Shown: piece by piece, positions 405-36,881 of the stretch | Layout: every line of letters starts with the position of its first letter | Position numbering within the stretch: the stretch's first letter is position 1 | Virus record (IMG/VR): IMGVR_UViG_3300042879_004946 | Coordinates: 1-64,000 of that record | Source of the DNA: a virus | Direction: 5' to 3' (one strand) | Length of the DNA stretch: 64,000 nucleotides | Made by a program: the position numbers and the translations under genes | The notes under the pieces: generated by a model | Told to the model about the DNA's origin: nothing | Databases searched by the model: none | The model's input: only the letters and a program-made list of their open reading frames with translations

Positions 405-1265
405 ATGAAAATGACAGAAGAAAAATTTAACCGATTAAAAGAAGTATTATCGATACCAACATATTCACAAGATGAAAAGTTAATGATTGAATACCTCCAA
501 AAAGTTTTAACCGAAAAAGGATATCAACATTACACCGATGAACATGGTAATATTTATGCCACCAAAGGTGAAAGCCAAAATTATCCTTGTTTTATTGCTC
601 ACACCGACACGGTTCATAAAGTTAATTTAAATTTAACCGTAGTTGAAGGGTACCAAAAAGGTGAAACCGTTCTTAAAGGTGTTGATTGTGTTACCGGAAA
701 ACCAACGGGAATTGGTGGTGATGATAAGTGTGGTGTTTTTTTGGCTTTAGAAATGTTGGGCACCTTACCAAATGTTAAAGTTGCCTTTTTTGTTTCTGAA
801 GAAATTGGTTGTAGAGGCAGCCAACACGCAGACCCTGAATTTTTTAAGAACGTTGGTTACGCAATTCAGTATGACTCCCCGGAAGGTAACTCTATGAGTT
901 TAACACTTATGGGTAGATATTTGTTCAATCAAAAATCAGAATTCGCTGATAAAGTAACTGGTTTGATAAAAGAACACGGAATTAGTAATTGGGCGTATCA
1001 TCCATATACCGATGCTTGGCAAATTGTTGAAAAATTTGATATAGCTTGTTTAAATTTGGCTGCAGGGTATTACCAATATCATACAGCAAACGAATATGTT
1101 GTTGTTGATGATGTTGAAAACGGATATCAATTGGGGTTAAAACTTGTTGAGGTTTTAGGAGAAAATAAATACTCAAACAAAAAAGAAGAACGTAGTTATC
1201 TTCTGAATGATGGATATGGTAGTCAATATAACAGAAAAAGAATTGATTACGGATATGAAGATTAA
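405..1265 (+). CDS. M20-like zinc metallopeptidase (peptidase T-like)
   Basis: This is a 286-residue soluble peptidase. Numbered from the ATG at 405, the probable zinc ligands and catalytic residues appear in M20 order: HTD (H66, D68), GIGGDDKCG (D106/D107), SEE (E132/E133), D157 in the motif IQYDSP, and H226 in YHTANE. The protein is shorter than standalone M20 enzymes and seems to keep little or no lid domain. An in-frame GTG at 396 is an alternative start, but ATG 405 follows the promoter and resembles other starts here. It is the only plus-strand gene in the left 4.5 kb, with its own host-type promoter and a terminator. This points to an early gene acting on host peptides, but the substrate cannot be read from the sequence. 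Confidence 0.8.
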   Translation: MKMTEEKFNRLKEVLSIPTYSQDEKLMIEYLQKVLTEKGYQHYTDEHGNIYATKGESQNYPCFIAHTDTVHKVNLNLTVVEGYQKGETVLKGVDCVTGKPTGIGGDDKCGVFLALEMLGTLPNVKVAFFVSEEIGCRGSQHADPEFFKNVGYAIQYDSPEGNSMSLTLMGRYLFNQKSEFADKVTGLIKEHGISNWAYHPYTDAWQIVEKFDIACLNLAAGYYQYHTANEYVVVDDVENGYQLGLKLVEVLGENKYSNKKEERSYLLNDGYGSQYNRKRIDYGYED

Positions 1266-1293
1266 AAAAAGGGACTTTTAGGTCCCTTTTTTT
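1264..1293 (+). terminator. Rho-independent terminator after the peptidase gene
   Basis: GGGAC (1271-1275) pairs with GTCCC (1282-1286) around a 6-base loop, followed by seven T. A-rich sequence before the stem means it could also stop minus-strand transcripts coming out of the CRISPR mini-array. Confidence 0.8.
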
Positions 1294-1334: not shown

Positions 1335-1568
1335 AAATTTCAATCCTTTCGTTTATGGGTCATCTCCAGCTACCGCTGGATTAAGTTATCTAGCATCTCC
1401 GTTGTAAATACCTTTCGTTTATGGGTCATCTCCAGCACAAACAATTAACCATTGAGGTTATCTCTAGTTGTAAATACCTTTCGTTTATGGGTCATCTCCA
1501 GCCGCTTTATTCACGAATGTTACGTTGTTTCTGTTGTAAATACCTTTCGTTTATGGGTCATCTCCAGC
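1335..1568 (-). CRISPR. CRISPR mini-array 1: four 36-bp repeats, three 30-bp spacers, type VI-B-like
   Basis: Repeats lie at 1335-1370, 1401-1436, 1467-1502 and 1533-1568, with a period of exactly 66 bp. Spacers are 1371-1400, 1437-1466 and 1503-1532, each 30 bp and mutually unrelated. Three repeats are identical. The one at 1335 keeps only its inner 26 bases, the decay typical of a leader-distal terminal repeat, which sets the direction as minus strand. In that sense the repeat begins GCTGGAGATGACC and ends GGTATTTACAAC. A 36/30 geometry and a GGTAntnACAAC end are features of Cas13b (type VI-B) repeats. The first repeat is inside the 3' end of the gene at 1520-1891, so array and gene should share one transcript. 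No cas gene is present in the window. Confidence 0.9.
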
Positions 1569-1891
1569 ATACGCACGCATAAGTCTTTGATTTCTTGTTC
1601 ATTAAGACGAAATTCTTGATTTAATTTTCTCCAAATTTTATCATAATCAACTAATAAATAAGGTTTTTTTTTATCTCTATCCGCATCATCCACCATTAAA
1701 GTAACCCCGCTTTTATCCTTATATAACATTAAACCTGGATTATTTTCCGAAGGAACCACCTTTAAATTGGACATAATTTCATAAAGAAATTCTTCAGCGG
1801 GGGAAAATTGTTTAGTATTACCAACCAATTCTTCAGCCCAATCAAAATCATCAAATTCTTCTTTTAATATTTTTCTTATAAGGTTTTTCAT
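1520..1891 (-). CDS. Small CRISPR-linked protein, (I/L)xE N-terminus, paralogue 1
   Basis: This 123-residue acidic protein starts MKNLIRKILKEEFDDFDW, with a candidate prohead-protease site ILKE. It is closely similar along its length to the genes at 1952-2329 and 36099-36473. The family shares WAEELVGNTKQFSPAEEF near residues 18-35 and a C-terminal CVRMLEMTHKRKV. That C-terminal MLEMTHKRKV is encoded by the first repeat of CRISPR mini-array 1. The last residues (about TETT) and the stop at 1520-1522 lie inside the first spacer. I do not recognise a functional domain. It could be a packaged internal protein, or a carrier frame whose main role is to transcribe the array. That it is translated is supported by similarity to the two paralogues, not by experiment. 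Confidence 0.7.
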   Translation of the reverse strand: MKNLIRKILKEEFDDFDWAEELVGNTKQFSPAEEFLYEIMSNLKVVPSENNPGLMLYKDKSGVTLMVDDADRDKKKPYLLVDYDKIWRKLNQEFRLNEQEIKDLCVRMLEMTHKRKVFTTETT

Positions 1892-1896
1892 ATTTT

Positions 1897-1905
1897 ATAA
1901 ATATC
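1897..1905 (-). promoter_or_regulatory. GATATTTAT start-proximal element
   Basis: The minus-strand sense reads GATATTTAT and ends 5 bases before the ATG at 1891. The same nine bases occur just upstream of at least ten other genes on both strands. The short gap to the ATG means a promoter here would give a nearly leaderless mRNA, so a translation-initiation role is also possible. It abuts the degenerate terminal repeat of mini-array 2. Confidence 0.5.
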
Positions 1906-2006
1906 AGGTTAACATTTTTCGTTTATGGGTCATCTCCAGCTCAAATCAACTTCAATCAAAGTCCGATTCAGCTGTCAATACCTTTCGTTTATGGGTCATT
2001 TCCAGC
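1905..2006 (-). CRISPR. CRISPR mini-array 2: two 36-bp repeats around one 30-bp spacer
   Basis: Repeats lie at 1971-2006 and 1905-1940, again 66 bp apart, with a 30-bp spacer at 1941-1970. In the minus sense the first repeat begins GCTGGAAATG and ends TTGACAGC, so its ends GCTG/CAGC pair perfectly. The second repeat is intact for about 24 bases, then diverges to AACCTG, the same ending as the terminal repeat at 36488-36523. The first repeat lies in the 3' end of the gene at 1952-2329. Immediately after the terminal repeat comes the start region of the next paralogue, giving a gene-array-gene-array order. Confidence 0.85.
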
Positions 2007-2329
2007 ATACGCACGCATAAATTACTGATTTCTTGTCCATTAAGGCCAAATTCTTGACGTAATTTTAACCAAATTTGACGATAATCAACCCATAAATAAG
2101 GATTTTTTTCATCACTATCCACACTATCCGCCATTAAAGTAAGCCCGCTTTTATCCTTATATAACATTAAACCTGGATAATTTTTTGAAGGAACCGCCTT
2201 TAAGTTTGACATGATTTCATACAAAAATTCTTCAGCGGGTGAAAATTGTTTGGTGTTACCAACCAATTCTTCTGCCCAACCAAAATCATCAAATTCTTCT
2301 TTTAATATTTTTCTTATAAGGTTTTTCAT
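1952..2329 (-). CDS. Small CRISPR-linked protein, (I/L)xE N-terminus, paralogue 2
   Basis: This 125-residue paralogue of the genes at 1520-1891 and 36099-36473 starts MKNLIRKILKEEFDDFGW. Differences between the copies concentrate in the middle and C-terminal half (about residues 44-100), while the first 40 residues are almost unchanged. The C-terminal MLEMTHKRKV is encoded by the first repeat of mini-array 2, and the stop at 1952-1954 lies in the spacer. The ATG overlaps by 4 bases the end of the Dps-like gene at 2326-2697, so the two are probably co-translated. The function is unknown, and packaging is inferred from the N-terminal signal. Confidence 0.7.
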   Translation of the reverse strand: MKNLIRKILKEEFDDFGWAEELVGNTKQFSPAEEFLYEIMSNLKAVPSKNYPGLMLYKDKSGLTLMADSVDSDEKNPYLWVDYRQIWLKLRQEFGLNGQEISNLCVRMLEMTHKRKVLTAESDFD

Positions 2330-12934: not shown

Positions 12935-14419
12935 TTATTTTTTATAAATAAATTTCATATTACCACAATCCCAGATTCTATCAAAGCCTCTTTCTTGCAT
13001 AATTTGCCATTCAGTTTTATTAGAACCAAAACCTTCTGATATTAATTTTGCTTTTCTAAAATTAAAACGGTGATGCCTTTTTAATTGTGAAGATGGTTTA
13101 AAATACCAATAATTGGGGTTTGATAGGCCTAAAAATTTCATGTCACATTTATGGTAAACGGTTTTTTCATGGTTTAACCCTGACCACCTACAATCAGAAT
13201 AAGTCATAAAAGTTTTAATGCCCTCATTTTTTAAAACATAATTTAGTAGTTTATTGAACCCACCTCTTACTGAATGATAGCTTTTATTACAAAATCTAAT
13301 CAATTCCCAATTAGACTCTTTTGATTTTGTTATTTTTCTTTTACCAAAAGTCATTATTGAAACTAATTCGTTTTTATAAAATAAACCATACCTTATTTTA
13401 TCTTTTGCATCACCTTGTAAATGATTTTCTTCTAGAAATTTAATTTTAACTTCATTTGATATCTTTTTTATTTCACACTTTCTAGCATCTATTTTAATAA
13501 TATTTGAAAGTTTTAACTCATGGGAGAGTTTAGATAAAACAATATTTTTTTGATTAACAATTTCATCCTCAAAAATATGGATTAATTTTACATTTATTTT
13601 TTCCGTCATTTTTGATTTATTCAAATGATAATTTTTATCCTTACCAAGAAGCTCACCATGATAATAAAGACCATTTATTTCAATACCTAAATTATGGTCT
13701 GGTAAATAAAAATCGATTTCAAACGGATATATAATTTTTCTATTGTTTTGAATATATTTAATGTTGTTATTATTTAAAAATTCTTGTATAAATAATTGTG
13801 GCCTAGAATCTTTCTGTGATGGATGGCACTTACCACATCTTGGTATTATTCCACAACCCAATAAAGTACTAGTAAATTTATGATTACAAGCTAAACATTC
13901 AAATTCATACGGTAATGATGTATTACCATTTTTGTTGGCCGTATAATTAGAAAGTAATTTTAAACCATTAGATTCTAACTTTGGTAATAAATTTTTTAAA
14001 GTTTTTTGACGAACAGTTTCTTTTTGTTTATTAACCGATAATTCTTTGTTAGTGTTATCTATTGTTTTTTGGTGAATTTTTTTTACTTGCCATACATGGT
14101 CAACGCCGTATTTTTCTTTTACGGTATTTTTTATGTTTTGTAATCTTTTTTCTTTAACATCTTTTCTTTCTCCCCAAACTAAACGGCATTCATCAGAACA
14201 TAATTGTTTAAAATGATTTTTTTTAGTTTCAAACTTAGTACCACAAACTTTACATTCTCTTTCTTCTCTTATGGTTTTATCTTTACTTCTGCCTATTTTT
14301 ATCTTTCCTTGACGAGCATTTTCAAAATAGCAATTTCTGGAACAAAATTTTTTATCCCTAAATTTATATTCAGTTTCAAAATTTTGATTACAATGTTGGC
14401 AGGTTAATTCTATTTTCAT
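12935..14419 (-). CDS. Putative Vsr-like (PD-(D/E)XK) homing endonuclease C
   Basis: This 494-residue member is the most divergent of the three related endonucleases in the window. It starts with two zinc-finger-like Cys clusters (CQHCNQNF...FCSRNCYF, about residues 8-31; CKVCGTKF...LCSDECRL, about 56-79). It then has one KYGVDHVWQ motif, a third Cys cluster (CLACNHKF...CGKCHPSQ) and a nuclease-like core (FEIDFYLPDHNLGIEINGLY). The shared C-terminal domain has MTFGKRKI, WELIRFCNK, TYSDCRW and RIWDCGNMKF. It lies between the sheath gene and a virion-type gene, again interrupting late genes. Zinc ligands and the E/D core residues are visible; cleavage activity is inferred. Confidence 0.72.
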   Translation of the reverse strand: MKIELTCQHCNQNFETEYKFRDKKFCSRNCYFENARQGKIKIGRSKDKTIREERECKVCGTKFETKKNHFKQLCSDECRLVWGERKDVKEKRLQNIKNTVKEKYGVDHVWQVKKIHQKTIDNTNKELSVNKQKETVRQKTLKNLLPKLESNGLKLLSNYTANKNGNTSLPYEFECLACNHKFTSTLLGCGIIPRCGKCHPSQKDSRPQLFIQEFLNNNNIKYIQNNRKIIYPFEIDFYLPDHNLGIEINGLYYHGELLGKDKNYHLNKSKMTEKINVKLIHIFEDEIVNQKNIVLSKLSHELKLSNIIKIDARKCEIKKISNEVKIKFLEENHLQGDAKDKIRYGLFYKNELVSIMTFGKRKITKSKESNWELIRFCNKSYHSVRGGFNKLLNYVLKNEGIKTFMTYSDCRWSGLNHEKTVYHKCDMKFLGLSNPNYWYFKPSSQLKRHHRFNFRKAKLISEGFGSNKTEWQIMQERGFDRIWDCGNMKFIYKK

Positions 14420-14522: not shown

Positions 14523-17282
14523 TTAAATGTCATCGAAGGAAGCTCCTGTCGGTGTTACATTAAATTCAATGTAAATGTATTCAAGTGTTGGTACTGGTTT
14601 TAAGAAAATCTTACCACGTAACTCATTTCTATCGATTTCTTCAGGGTCGTTAGATAATTGAACTCTAAAATCGGCCAAACCTCTTTCTTTTCTAATGTTA
14701 TCCAAAATAGGATTTACAGAATTTAAGAATTGGTTTCTAACAATTTGATCGTTAGGTTCAAACAACAATCTAATACCAACCGCGGTAATTAATCTACGAG
14801 CTTGTAACAACAATCTTCTAATGTTAAGCCTGTTAAGAACGGAATCTTTAACTTGCATATTTTTATTACCCCAAATAACAACACCAACATCAGAATAAGT
14901 CGCCATAGGGTTAACACGACCTTCGTAAAGAACGTCTCTATCGGCCTCAGTTAATTTGGTTCTTGCTTTAATCGCGTTGGTTAAACCTCTGTTATAACCA
15001 GCAACTGCGTACCAAGGGAAGGTAATATTATCTGTTAATGCAATGTTTCTAACAACTTCCAATGTTGGCGGCAACCAAACGTTAACAGTATTTTCAGTAT
15101 CTCGTTCTTGAACCCATGGCCAATAAGTGGCGGTGTAGTTAGAATCAATATCTGCGGCGTCTAACAATGAAATTAAAGCGTCAGCAGAATCAACAGTTGC
15201 TTGATTAAAACCAAAAGCGGAAGTAACATCTGTATCATCGTAAACAACATTATCTGGTGCGGTTACAATATAAACAGAATCTGCTCTTTCTTGTTCCACC
15301 ATATCAATGGTTTCTTGTACAATGTAGTTATTGTTTGACCAATCGATACCTGGGGTTGCTAAAACGTTAATGTTAACTGCCTCAGGATTTGCGAAAGTTC
15401 TAATAGCGTTCCAATATGCGTATAAATCTGAAGTACCATCTTGTGGCCCTAGTTGTTGGAATTGACCACTTGCTAAACCTGCAGTAAATCCAGCTCTACC
15501 AACACGATATCTATCAGTGTTTGTTCTAGAAGTACGATAACAATCCCAACCATCAAATCCCCAATAAGGTACCAAGGTAAATTTCCTTGCGGTTGTGCTT
15601 TCATAGTCAGTACCTTCAGCATCTGTACTATTTTGGAATTGTGATTCACCGACATAGAAATTGCCTGCGACTGTTGCTCCAGAATCCATGTGGAAACCTT
15701 TTGTTGTTGCCGTCCAGTAAGTATCACTAGTAGTTAAACCTTTCCAGTTAAACATGTTTTGATCAATACCTACAGTATCAGAAATACCTAAGTAAACTTT
15801 TCTTACTCTTTCATTTTCTAAATCATAAGAAGTTTTATAGTGGATGAATGGTGCCAATGCTGACCCATAAGTCGCGACACGATAACCTTCAAAACCCGCT
15901 GCGAAAGCATCAATCGGTGCCTCTTCATTAACAACTGCCATAATGAATTTAGAATTTAAAACAAATTCACCATCAGCAGTACCAATCGCTCTTGCGATGT
16001 AGTTATTAGAAGAAGGATCCATAACACATTTTGGGAATGTTTCCAATATTGAAGGGTTTGCATCGGTATCACCCCAAGTTCTAACAATAACGTCAAATTC
16101 TTTAGTATCAAAATTTACGTTTCTAATAGAAATTTTAATTTCTTGGTTAGCTGCAGAACCATCAGAGATGGAAACAAATTTAAATAATTTAAACACTTGA
16201 TTACCACGAAGTTCCGAAACAATCCAAGGGGTTTCTGGTGTTTGATATTGTTGTCTGTAATTATCTAAAGTAGTAAGATAAGTTAAAGAGCTGTTAAGGC
16301 CTAAAATGTAATTGTTATCAATTAAATCTTGTAACATGTTAGGGTAAATTTGTTCAACATAGATTTTAGTATTTCTATCTTGACAATCTGTTCCTAAAAC
16401 ACCTGCAATATAATTTTGAGAAGTTCTGTCTAATGAAACTTGATAAATGGATGTGTTTGCTGATGAAGTTGCTGATAATGTAAATTGAGCTAACGAATTT
16501 GTTTGTGCATTTGTAAAGTTACCATTAACACCATTACTTGTTTCTAAGGTTGACCAAACTAAAGTATCCGTGTTGTATACCGCTCTTGGTCTTAGTACTG
16601 CTAATACCATGTTATCATATTCAGTATAAGCACTTGCGGTATAAGTTGTTACAGTACCTGAAACTGTACCTGAAGTTCCTGTTAAAGTAAGTTGTTGTAA
16701 GGTTGCTGAAACCCCACTAAAAGAAATTCCTGTAGTTCTATCAAAAACAATTCCTTCTGGATACACAGTAGTATCGTTTGGTACGTTTGCGGTTGTTAAA
16801 GTAGCTCCATTAGGGAATAAACCTAAATCATACAAATATTGTGCTTGTGGTGACCCAACCCCAGTAAAATTACTATAAGTTGTGCCAGTAAAGTTCGCCG
16901 TAAAGTTTGTAGTTGCACCTGTTACAATTGTTGACGGATTATAGTTTGCTCTAGAAGTTATAACCCAAGCACTTCCTGCGTCATAACCTGTTAAACCTAA
17001 AACTCTAGTTACGAATAACTGATTTGATTCCGTTAGGTAACTTTTTGCAATATAAGGTAATTCGTATTTCGGTACGTTATTACTAAATTTAGTGGGATTT
17101 TGACCACCAAAAATAGTTAAAAATTCATCATAATTTCTGATGAATATTGGCTCAAAAGCGGGACCTTTAAGGGTCTCACCGGCCAAACCCAATGTAGTTA
17201 CACCAACTTGTTGAGCGATAAATGTCAAATCTTTTTCTGATGTAAAAATACCTGGAGATACTAAAATTTTTTCTGCTGCCAT
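14523..17282 (-). CDS. Contractile tail sheath protein (T4 gp18-like)
   Basis: The protein has 919 residues, longer than T4 gp18 (about 660). The N-terminus shows the family start VSPGIFTSEKDLTFI and GLAGETLKGPAFEP. The C-terminal 150 residues carry LNRLNIRRLLLQARR, LLFEPND and FLNSVNPILDNIR, and end in a beta strand used for sheath linking in this family. The extra length lies mainly in the region about 100-330, rich in Thr, Ser, Asn and Gly, probably surface-exposed insert domains. Family role: hexameric rings around the tail tube that contract on infection. It is monocistronic, with a terminator directly downstream. Confidence 0.93.
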   Translation of the reverse strand: MAAEKILVSPGIFTSEKDLTFIAQQVGVTTLGLAGETLKGPAFEPIFIRNYDEFLTIFGGQNPTKFSNNVPKYELPYIAKSYLTESNQLFVTRVLGLTGYDAGSAWVITSRANYNPSTIVTGATTNFTANFTGTTYSNFTGVGSPQAQYLYDLGLFPNGATLTTANVPNDTTVYPEGIVFDRTTGISFSGVSATLQQLTLTGTSGTVSGTVTTYTASAYTEYDNMVLAVLRPRAVYNTDTLVWSTLETSNGVNGNFTNAQTNSLAQFTLSATSSANTSIYQVSLDRTSQNYIAGVLGTDCQDRNTKIYVEQIYPNMLQDLIDNNYILGLNSSLTYLTTLDNYRQQYQTPETPWIVSELRGNQVFKLFKFVSISDGSAANQEIKISIRNVNFDTKEFDVIVRTWGDTDANPSILETFPKCVMDPSSNNYIARAIGTADGEFVLNSKFIMAVVNEEAPIDAFAAGFEGYRVATYGSALAPFIHYKTSYDLENERVRKVYLGISDTVGIDQNMFNWKGLTTSDTYWTATTKGFHMDSGATVAGNFYVGESQFQNSTDAEGTDYESTTARKFTLVPYWGFDGWDCYRTSRTNTDRYRVGRAGFTAGLASGQFQQLGPQDGTSDLYAYWNAIRTFANPEAVNINVLATPGIDWSNNNYIVQETIDMVEQERADSVYIVTAPDNVVYDDTDVTSAFGFNQATVDSADALISLLDAADIDSNYTATYWPWVQERDTENTVNVWLPPTLEVVRNIALTDNITFPWYAVAGYNRGLTNAIKARTKLTEADRDVLYEGRVNPMATYSDVGVVIWGNKNMQVKDSVLNRLNIRRLLLQARRLITAVGIRLLFEPNDQIVRNQFLNSVNPILDNIRKERGLADFRVQLSNDPEEIDRNELRGKIFLKPVPTLEYIYIEFNVTPTGASFDDI

Positions 17283-36098: not shown

Positions 36099-36473
36099 AT
36101 GAAAAATCTTATAAGAAAAATATTAAGGGAAGAGTTTGATGATTTTGATTGGGCAGAAGAATTGGTTGGTAACACCAAACAATTTTCACCCGCTGAAGAA
36201 TTTTTGTATGAAATTATGTCCAATTTAAAGGCGGTTCCTTCGGAAAAAAATCCAGGTTGGATGTTATATAAGGATAAAAGCGGGGTTACTTTAATGGCGG
36301 ATAGTGTGGATAGAGATAAAAAAGATCCTTATTTATGGGTTGATTATGATGAAATTTGGTTAAAATTACGTCAAAAATTTGGTCTTAACAATCAGGAAAC
36401 CAAAGACTTATGCGTGCGTATGCTGGAGATGACCCATAAACGAAAGGTATTGACAGCAGCCTTCATCGGCTAA
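36099..36473 (+). CDS. Small CRISPR-linked protein, (I/L)xE N-terminus, paralogue 3
   Basis: This 124-residue paralogue of the genes at 1520-1891 and 1952-2329 is 34 kb away and on the opposite strand. It starts MKNLIRKILREEFDDFDW at ATG 36099; the longer frame from 36087 needs a TTG. It differs from the other copies mostly at scattered positions after residue 45. Its MLEMTHKRKV is encoded by the first repeat of mini-array 3. The last residues (AAFIG) are set by the repeat end and the spacer, and the stop is at 36471-36473 inside the spacer. Three loci with the same gene-repeat fusion argue that the gene and the array move or are kept as a unit. The molecular function is unknown. Confidence 0.7.
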   Translation: MKNLIRKILREEFDDFDWAEELVGNTKQFSPAEEFLYEIMSNLKAVPSEKNPGWMLYKDKSGVTLMADSVDRDKKDPYLWVDYDEIWLKLRQKFGLNNQETKDLCVRMLEMTHKRKVLTAAFIG

Positions 36474-36523
36474 ACCCTTCGTACAAAGCTGGAGATGACC
36501 CATAAACGAAAGGTATTGACCTG
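36422..36523 (+). CRISPR. CRISPR mini-array 3: two 36-bp repeats around one 30-bp spacer
   Basis: Repeats lie at 36422-36457 and 36488-36523 with the spacer at 36458-36487, again a 66-bp period. The plus-strand sense begins GCTGGAGATGACC and, in the first repeat, ends GGTATTGACAGC, so the ends GCTG and CAGC are perfectly complementary. The second repeat ends GACCTG and runs directly into the GATATTTAT element and start of the next gene, as at mini-array 2. Direction is the same as the flanking genes. A host Cas13b could process it into one 30-nt-spacer crRNA. Confidence 0.85.
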
Positions 36524-36531
36524 ATATTTAT
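36523..36531 (+). promoter_or_regulatory. GATATTTAT start-proximal element
   Basis: It shares its first base with the end of the terminal repeat and lies 5 bases before the ATG at 36537. The junction matches the one at 1897-1905 on the other strand. Confidence 0.45.
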
Positions 36532-36536
36532 AAAAT

Positions 36537-36881
36537 ATGAAAAATCTTATAAAAAAAATATTAAAAGAAGAAATCGCCACCAGCAAGAGTTTTGAAGACT
36601 TTGCTGAAAAAAGATTTAAAGGTGCGGAAAAAATCACCAATAATGCAAAAGAAAAAGGTGGTCCAGCAATGTTAACCTATCACCATTTTAGAGTTAAATT
36701 ACCTTACTATAAAAAAGCAATGGAAGGTAAATTTGATTTGGAAGAATCAAAAAAAGAATTTAAAAAATATCTAGATGAATTATGTGACTTATCTGAAAAC
36801 GTTGAAATGGGACAAGTAGAATTTCAAAAATTAGTTGGTCTTATAGAAGTTTTAGGTGAACTCATAATCAAACAAAAGTAA
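36537..36881 (+). CDS. Hypothetical helical protein with (I/L)xE N-terminus
   Basis: This 114-residue protein shares only its start, MKNLIKKILKEE, with the CRISPR-linked family; the rest is different. It is helical, with KGGPAMLTYHHFRVKLPYYK at about residues 42-61, followed by Glu/Leu-rich helices to the end. No family is recognised with confidence. The N-terminal identity across unrelated bodies supports the idea that the first 12 residues are a modular targeting tag. It is the last gene before the DNA polymerase and follows mini-array 3. Confidence 0.6.
   Translation: MKNLIKKILKEEIATSKSFEDFAEKRFKGAEKITNNAKEKGGPAMLTYHHFRVKLPYYKKAMEGKFDLEESKKEFKKYLDELCDLSENVEMGQVEFQKLVGLIEVLGELIIKQK

Follow-up and report, generated by a model that had tools for sequence, protein, structure and literature searches.

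The phage contig studied here carries short CRISPR-like arrays embedded in protein-coding genes, and gene and array together form a mobile, hypervariable cassette that, as we hold with modest confidence, uses host Cas machinery against competing elements. What we observed directly comprises the anatomy, copy number and modularity of the cassettes, the copying of their repeats, the foreign composition and turnover of their spacers, a constraint that acts on the gene end at the nucleotide level, and the ability of most repeat variants to form a predicted hairpin. It may be that these phages use genes of their own as a record of guide sequences. The window, i.e., the whole stretch of DNA that was analysed (64,000 nucleotides), covers positions 1 to 64,000 of a viral contig of 108,457 bp from a contractile-tail phage, with the tail sheath at 14523-17282. 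An HNH/homing endonuclease gene (phrog_3339, phrog_559; 12935-14419) adjoins the tail sheath gene.

The sequence-only reading had described, at 1335-1568, an array of four 36-bp repeats with a 66-bp period and three unrelated 30-bp spacers, the terminal repeat being decayed at its distal end. We confirmed both the arrangement and the decay. The first three 36-nt repeats are identical (GCTGGAGATGACCCATAAACGAAAGGTATTTACAAC) and spaced at 66 bp, and the terminal repeat has kept 26 nt at its 5' side and lost the 3' 10 nt. The array is neither alone nor intergenic, since repeat 1 is coding sequence and the same record holds further arrays. Matches to the repeat with three or fewer mismatches numbered five in the window and zero in dinucleotide shuffles of it, and in the whole record repeats with a period of about 66 bp occur only as CRISPR-like arrays. 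The features at and around array 1 are as follows.

1335..1568, minus strand: array 1, with repeats at 1533-1568, 1467-1502, 1401-1436 and 1335-1370
1503-1532, 1437-1466 and 1371-1400, minus strand: spacers of array 1, 30 nt each and mutually unrelated
1520..1891, minus strand: 123-aa gene (MKNLIRKILKEE...LCVRMLEMTHKRKVFTTETT), with repeat 1 as its final 12 codons
1569..1584, minus strand: conserved coding 'leader' ACTTATGCGTGCGTAT, directly upstream of repeat 1
1264..1293: perfect 12-bp inverted repeat with A/T runs (AAAAAAAGGGAC...GTCCCTTTTTTT), between array 1 and a convergent peptidase gene

The peptidase gene, M42/M20-like (PF05343, phrog_4191), occupies 396-1265 and is convergent with array 1. 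The palindrome at 1264-1293 is likely a bidirectional terminator; it was not listed by a simple terminator scan.

Repeat 1 (1533-1568) is read in the frame ..G CTG GAG ATG ACC CAT AAA CGA AAG GTA TTT ACA AC and encodes LEMTHKRKVFTT, the C-terminal end of the 123-aa protein, while the tail and the stop of this protein are encoded by spacer 1. The ACTTATGCGTGCGTAT leader is identical or near-identical upstream of most arrays. Among paralogs, the median dN/dS of 0.34 shows that the domain protein is under purifying selection, and its AlphaFold model is confident (pLDDT 83.7). In the predicted domain fold, the repeat encodes the last strand and the end of the last helix. No significant relative of the domain was detected in Pfam, PHROGs or the solved structures of the PDB, and the search of a viral fold library matched only uncharacterised proteins of uncultured phages.

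The gene-plus-array cassette is present at five loci in the 108-kb record. The features of the other four are listed below.

1905..2006, minus strand: array 2, with repeat 1971-2006, spacer 1941-1970 (TGAATCGGACTTTGATTGAAGTTGATTTGA) and terminal repeat 1905-1940
1952..2329, minus strand: array-2 gene, 125 aa, an adjoining paralog of the 123-aa gene
36099..36473, plus strand: array-3 gene, 124 aa, the third paralog in the window
36422..36523, plus strand: array 3, with repeat 36422-36457, spacer 36458-36487 and terminal repeat 36488-36523
72471-72572: shorter array beyond the window, gene and array lying around 72148-72572
81061-81226: array beyond the window, gene and array lying around 81061-81537

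The terminal repeat of array 3 extends into the upstream sequence of the next gene. The start of the array-2 gene is overlapped by a gene for a DUF5856 protein (PF19174; phrog_858 'starvation-inducible transcriptional regulator') at 2326-2697, and this overlap suggests that the two genes are translationally coupled. The N-terminus MKNLIRKILREE, together with ATATTTATAAAATATG upstream of it, is common to several phage genes that are otherwise unrelated; they are located at 36099-36881 and 1520-2329 of the window and also occur in the related records G001 and G002. This shared segment could target proteins to the capsid or provide a handle for recombination.

When IMG/VR was searched by pattern and by homology, a family of arrays emerged, at least 23 of them distinct, spread over about ten related records. 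The searches gave 22 distinct full arrays (65 repeats), and to these come the shorter array at 72471-72572 and L133. Each array has two to five repeats with unique spacers, and one relative of 122,591 bp (G001) holds at least seven loci. Larger proteins, too, have the domain and its array at their C-terminal end, namely those of 424 aa (L016), 562 aa (L018) and 326 aa (L033 and L072) and a nucleotidyltransferase-like one of 367 aa (L067). Natural domain-less orthologs exist for two of these fusions: the 260-aa nucleotidyltransferase-like protein of the window phage stops at the point where the domain begins in L067, and the 201-aa L129 protein does so with respect to L033. No array was found except behind the domain, so that the two move as a unit; the domain, for its part, is present without an array in L032 and in the 425-aa L007 ortholog. 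At 1-311 of the window (minus strand) lies the start of a gene for a 424-aa protein, which is truncated there because the contig ends; the 3' end of this gene is present in G003, a near-identical record, and bears a further three-repeat array (L016, 5772 onward). The same arrays were found in records of 317,983 bp (L072/L073) and 132,425 bp (L076/L078), so that the cassettes are also present in jumbo-sized phages or their fragments. L039 (1288-1860), where the 3' end of a distant domain homolog is repeated in tandem in diverged form, was rejected as an array because it is a plain tandem duplication that has no spacers of about 30 nt. This locus hints that the domain end may be duplication-prone more widely.

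Comparison of the arrays with each other revealed how units are added. In the 22 full arrays, 30 of the 43 spacers are exactly 30 nt long, which is also the modal length, and the range is 28-32 nt; L133 conforms to the 36/30 geometry as well. Non-terminal repeats agree at 34.7 of 36 positions within an array and at 30.9 of 36 between arrays, a difference reached in none of 5000 permutations. Private variants of individual gene ends recur in their own arrays, namely GGTTC (72471, L020), GGCGACCCATAGACG (L008; GGCG..AGACG), CTAG (L021), A at base 1 (L016) and TTGTGGGAG (L073). Because the repeats within an array track the local gene end, private variants included, we conclude that they are copied in place. 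For the polarity of growth there are two clear comparisons and one mixed. The spacer TGAATCGGACTTTGATTG... is the sole one of the window array at 1905-2006 and the most distal of three in L018 of a related phage. Compared with L011, L008 holds one extra spacer, which is gene-proximal, whereas L007 and L008 on the minus strand show a mixed pattern of spacer gain. Terminal repeats are decayed, chiefly in their last 10 nt, and differ from repeat 1 at 4.5 positions as against 0.86 for inner repeats; in L133 the terminal repeat is intact. The family thus combines near-identical direct repeats and unique spacers of uniform length with polarised growth at the leader end, seen in a small number of cases, in which the repeat is copied from the leader-proximal one. 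Such a pattern is characteristic of CRISPR adaptation at the leader end, except that a gene apparently stands where the leader would be.

The spacers differ in composition from the phage. Their GC content is 41.1% (bootstrap CI 38-44%; 41 non-redundant spacers) compared with 30.6% for random phage 30-mers, and none of 5000 random phage draws reached this value, the highest being 36.2%. An origin of the spacers in the phages themselves was rejected, the best identity in own and related genomes being 0.673 versus 0.668 for shuffled spacers. At two loci, the window phage and the relative G002 agree at 98.6-99.9% of positions in the 1.2 kb to either side and have no spacer in common. Between these flanks the gene itself has diverged, down to 46/60 per block at the 36-kb locus and to 55-60/60 per block at the 72-kb locus. 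The site of array 3 in G002 holds two spacers, both different. The spacers therefore look foreign and appear to change rapidly. Matches in phage genomes, for which the sequence-only reading had proposed to search, did not materialise: GenBank phages and plasmids yielded no protospacers and only chance-level rows (E >=8), E. coli yielded none, and exact searches with eight spacers in IMG/VR returned their own arrays only. With 48.8% AG, the spacers show no strand (purine) bias. The complements of the spacers have more open frames (1.95) than shuffles do (1.67, sd 0.11), a weak hint that the spacers may have antisense-to-mRNA polarity.

To what extent the gene end is conserved as nucleic acid is apparent from its codons. 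At sites with identical amino acids, array-bearing groups A and B share 89% of codons in the last 12 and 69% in the body of the gene. For the arrayless L032 the same measure gives 29% and 64%, i.e., the codons of the repeat are lost, and the comparison of group C with A gives 67% vs 64%, without excess in the repeat. Codons that are rare, CTG (0.9% of Leu), CGA (4.9% of Arg) and AAG (7.9% of Lys), are employed throughout the repeats. The gene end appears to be constrained at the nucleotide level and not by the protein alone, which would make it a single sequence under protein and RNA/DNA selection together.

Repeats of the GCTG...CAGC form are predicted to fold into an end-to-end hairpin (z=-3.0) that beats synonymous recodings (p=0.002), and the same advantage was seen for L067 (p=0.0003), L073 (0.009), L033 (0.024) and L133 (0.028). 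No gain over recodings was detected for the focal CAAC repeats (p=0.36) or for L008 (p=0.15). With its second pair disrupted by CAAC, the focal repeat ranks with the weaker hairpins of the family. A terminal stem plus an inner hairpin, as in type VI-B repeat RNA, is predicted for most variants and not for the focal repeat of the window. Across 28 distinct repeats, 91% of cells are paired as opposed to 24-50% for slid pairings; shuffling letters within columns did not lower the paired fraction of these repeats. Covariation between paired positions is thin, as only one pair shows two-sided change.

Some of these data could also be explained if the arrays diversified protein tails, the repeats being recombination handles that swap C-terminal tails and the spacers tail-coding segments instead of guides. 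Repeat 1 is indeed coding, spacer 1 encodes a tail and often a stop, whole cassettes are exchanged as blocks, and some arrays are in frame throughout, such as L018 with its three repeats. However, the reading frame is often lost because the unit length is 64-68 bp, in-frame stops occur in spacers at chance frequency (15/41 vs 17.4 in shuffled spacers), and the tight 30-nt length, a GC content about 10 points above that of the phage and the synonymous-site constraint are left unexplained. The frame, stop and composition tests led us to reject tail diversification as the main function, and we consider this explanation of the arrays unlikely.

The repeats had been described as type VI-B (Cas13b)-like. 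We compared them with those of Flavobacterium columnare and F. branchiophilum, the 36-nt repeat of the latter being one that we take to be VI-B. The array repeat matches Flavobacterium VI-B repeats in register at 19-23 of 36 positions, beyond or nearly beyond all shuffles, and II-C and V-A repeats of Flavobacterium gave no such match. Its orientation relative to leader and transcription is that of F. columnare VI-B. Flavobacterium repeats of 36 nt with 29-30-bp spacers have been published (PMC5395568), and the assignment of the F. columnare repeat to VI-B is that of PMC8092290. When the peptide LEMTHKRKVFT was fixed and its synonymous codons were varied, 18.8 of the 22 F. columnare matches were already expected (p=0.015), and the same control for the commoner repeat gave p=0.09. 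Synonymous recodings overall reach 17-19 VI-B matches, and codon choice adds modestly to these (p=0.015-0.10). The arrays do have a 36-nt repeat with GTTG...ACAAC ends and spacers of about 30 nt, as in VI-B. Because most of the likeness of the repeat follows from the encoded peptide, membership in VI-B is unproven; a repeat resembling VI-B may have come to be encoded by the peptide, or else luck accounts for part of the likeness. Terminal repeats usually lack the 3' ACARC end, so that the last spacer of a VI-B-type crRNA (spacer then repeat) would be without a complete repeat.

The absence of cas genes from the window, as first reported, extends to the whole record and 11 related ones, in which neither Cas1 nor Cas13b was found; the Cas13b query sequence was confirmed as Cas13b by PADLOC models. 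These 12 related phage records also yielded no reverse transcriptase, and on this ground a DGR or RT-based writer was rejected. A similar repeat in a cas13b-bearing host, as had been envisaged, was not encountered in exact-pattern scans of GTDB contigs, which diverged repeats and unsampled hosts escape. An Rfam search gave sub-threshold chance matches only.

Our preferred reading is that the cassette is built on a domain of about 105 aa, which either stands by itself or is joined to another protein at its C-terminus, and that the final 12 codons of the domain double as the first, leader-proximal repeat. A new unit would comprise a 36-nt repeat copied from the gene end and a foreign fragment of about 30 nt, added gene-proximally, just as is expected of integration by Cas1-Cas2. 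Most probably, host Cas1-Cas2 mistakes the phage gene end for a leader-repeat junction, or has been made to accept it as such, and inserts prespacers of about 30 nt there; we infer that the machinery is the host's because the phages lack Cas1. The VI-B array of F. columnare is transcribed from its leader and gains spacers through II-C Cas1 in trans (PMC8092290), and this acquisition in trans can be taken as a model for arrays that lack a Cas1 of their own. The array would presumably be co-transcribed with the gene, as genes and arrays are collinear and the palindrome at 1264-1293 comes after array 1. Cleavage of the array RNA would then release repeat-spacer RNAs, and these would be loaded into an effector of the host, which most plausibly resembles type VI-B (Cas13b), and would aim it at competing phages or other elements. 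If this is true, phages possess guide arrays that can be updated, that lie within protein-coding genes, and that have multiplied to many loci and are exchanged in the form of cassettes. The virus-borne mini-CRISPR arrays would then include ones with a coding 'leader', the first phage-borne VI-B-like arrays might be at hand, and the writing of host Cas1-Cas2 into phage genes would become testable.

Alternatively, a phage-specific activity independent of CRISPR could install the fragments of about 30 nt, be it the domain itself, another phage protein such as a tyrosine recombinase, or a host factor, with the resulting RNAs working together with the domain protein. The array never occurs without the domain, which moves with it onto unrelated genes and has no match among solved structures; Cas1 is absent from the 12 records, and four of the 12 encode a tyrosine recombinase. 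The domain nevertheless also occurs arrayless (L032, L007), some array-bearing records, though partial, show no recombinase, and we know of no mechanism by which tyrosine recombinases yield foreign inserts of fixed length. We regard this possibility as quite unlikely. The tyrosine recombinase gene (PF00589) of the window phage lies at 105178-105612 on the minus strand (G000:C1), and the others are in G001, G004 and G006. Likewise quite unlikely, in our estimation, is a self-updating guide-RNA system encoded by the phage and independent of host CRISPR, in which the 3' coding end of the mobile domain would be both RNA scaffold and the site where foreign fragments of about 30 nt are inserted, and in which the domain protein, or some other factor of the phage, would make use of the RNAs.

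The arrays could also act as RNA anti-CRISPR (Racr-like) decoys, whose repeat hairpins titrate a host effector, Cas13b or its processing activity, with the spacers being incidental. Racrs mimic CRISPR repeats (PMC10651486), and the arrays studied here resemble VI-B in their repeats, are tiny and multicopy, and come without cas genes. However, Racrs are solitary repeat units, reported for all types except VI (PMC10651486), whereas we found two to five repeats with unique spacers; decoys would have no need of spacers that are unique, foreign, fixed in length and fast-changing. We judge this explanation distinctly improbable. Overall, the tests weigh more against tail diversification and decoys than against an insertion system of the phage's own. 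Between the repeats there are only fragments of about 30 nt and not the attC sites and cassette ORFs, served by IntI, of an integron. That the 66-bp units were not acquired de novo but captured when phage repeats recombined homologously with those of host CRISPR arrays, the route suggested for spacer gain by leaderless phage mini-arrays (PMC6858448), is highly improbable, given that the repeats track the local gene end down to its private variants.

Virus-borne mini-CRISPR arrays are already known (PMC6858448, PMC11656645). Those of SPV1 and SPV2 of Saccharolobus are similar to ours in having few spacers and no viral cas genes, and in carrying different spacers at the same position in close relatives, which implies turnover (PMC6858448). 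They differ in being intergenic, with host-like, promoter-bearing leaders, host-like repeats and mutual targeting, whereas in our phages the leader and repeat 1 are coding, many loci occur per genome, and the spacers searched were without targets found. In the open-access literature we found no report of arrays that lie in coding sequence and that a mobile C-terminal domain carries to numerous loci within a single phage. The arrays without cas genes in huge phages (PMC7162821) are likewise compact and thought to use host Cas proteins, but are not described as gene-embedded or as multicopy cassettes. RNA anti-CRISPRs and solitary repeat units (PMC10651486) are also phage-borne CRISPR repeat mimics without cas genes; our arrays differ from them by their multiple repeats and unique spacers, and type VI is unreported there. 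With the VI-B arrays of F. columnare and F. branchiophilum, our arrays share the 36-nt repeat, spacers of 29-30 nt, GYTG...ACARC ends, the same orientation from the leader and, in most repeat variants, a predicted end-to-end hairpin. They are set apart from these by a repeat identity of 19-23/36, the lack of nearby cas genes, a terminal repeat that is usually truncated, an invariant CATAAACGAAAGG-like centre, an inner stem of only 2-3 bp, and a leader that is coding.
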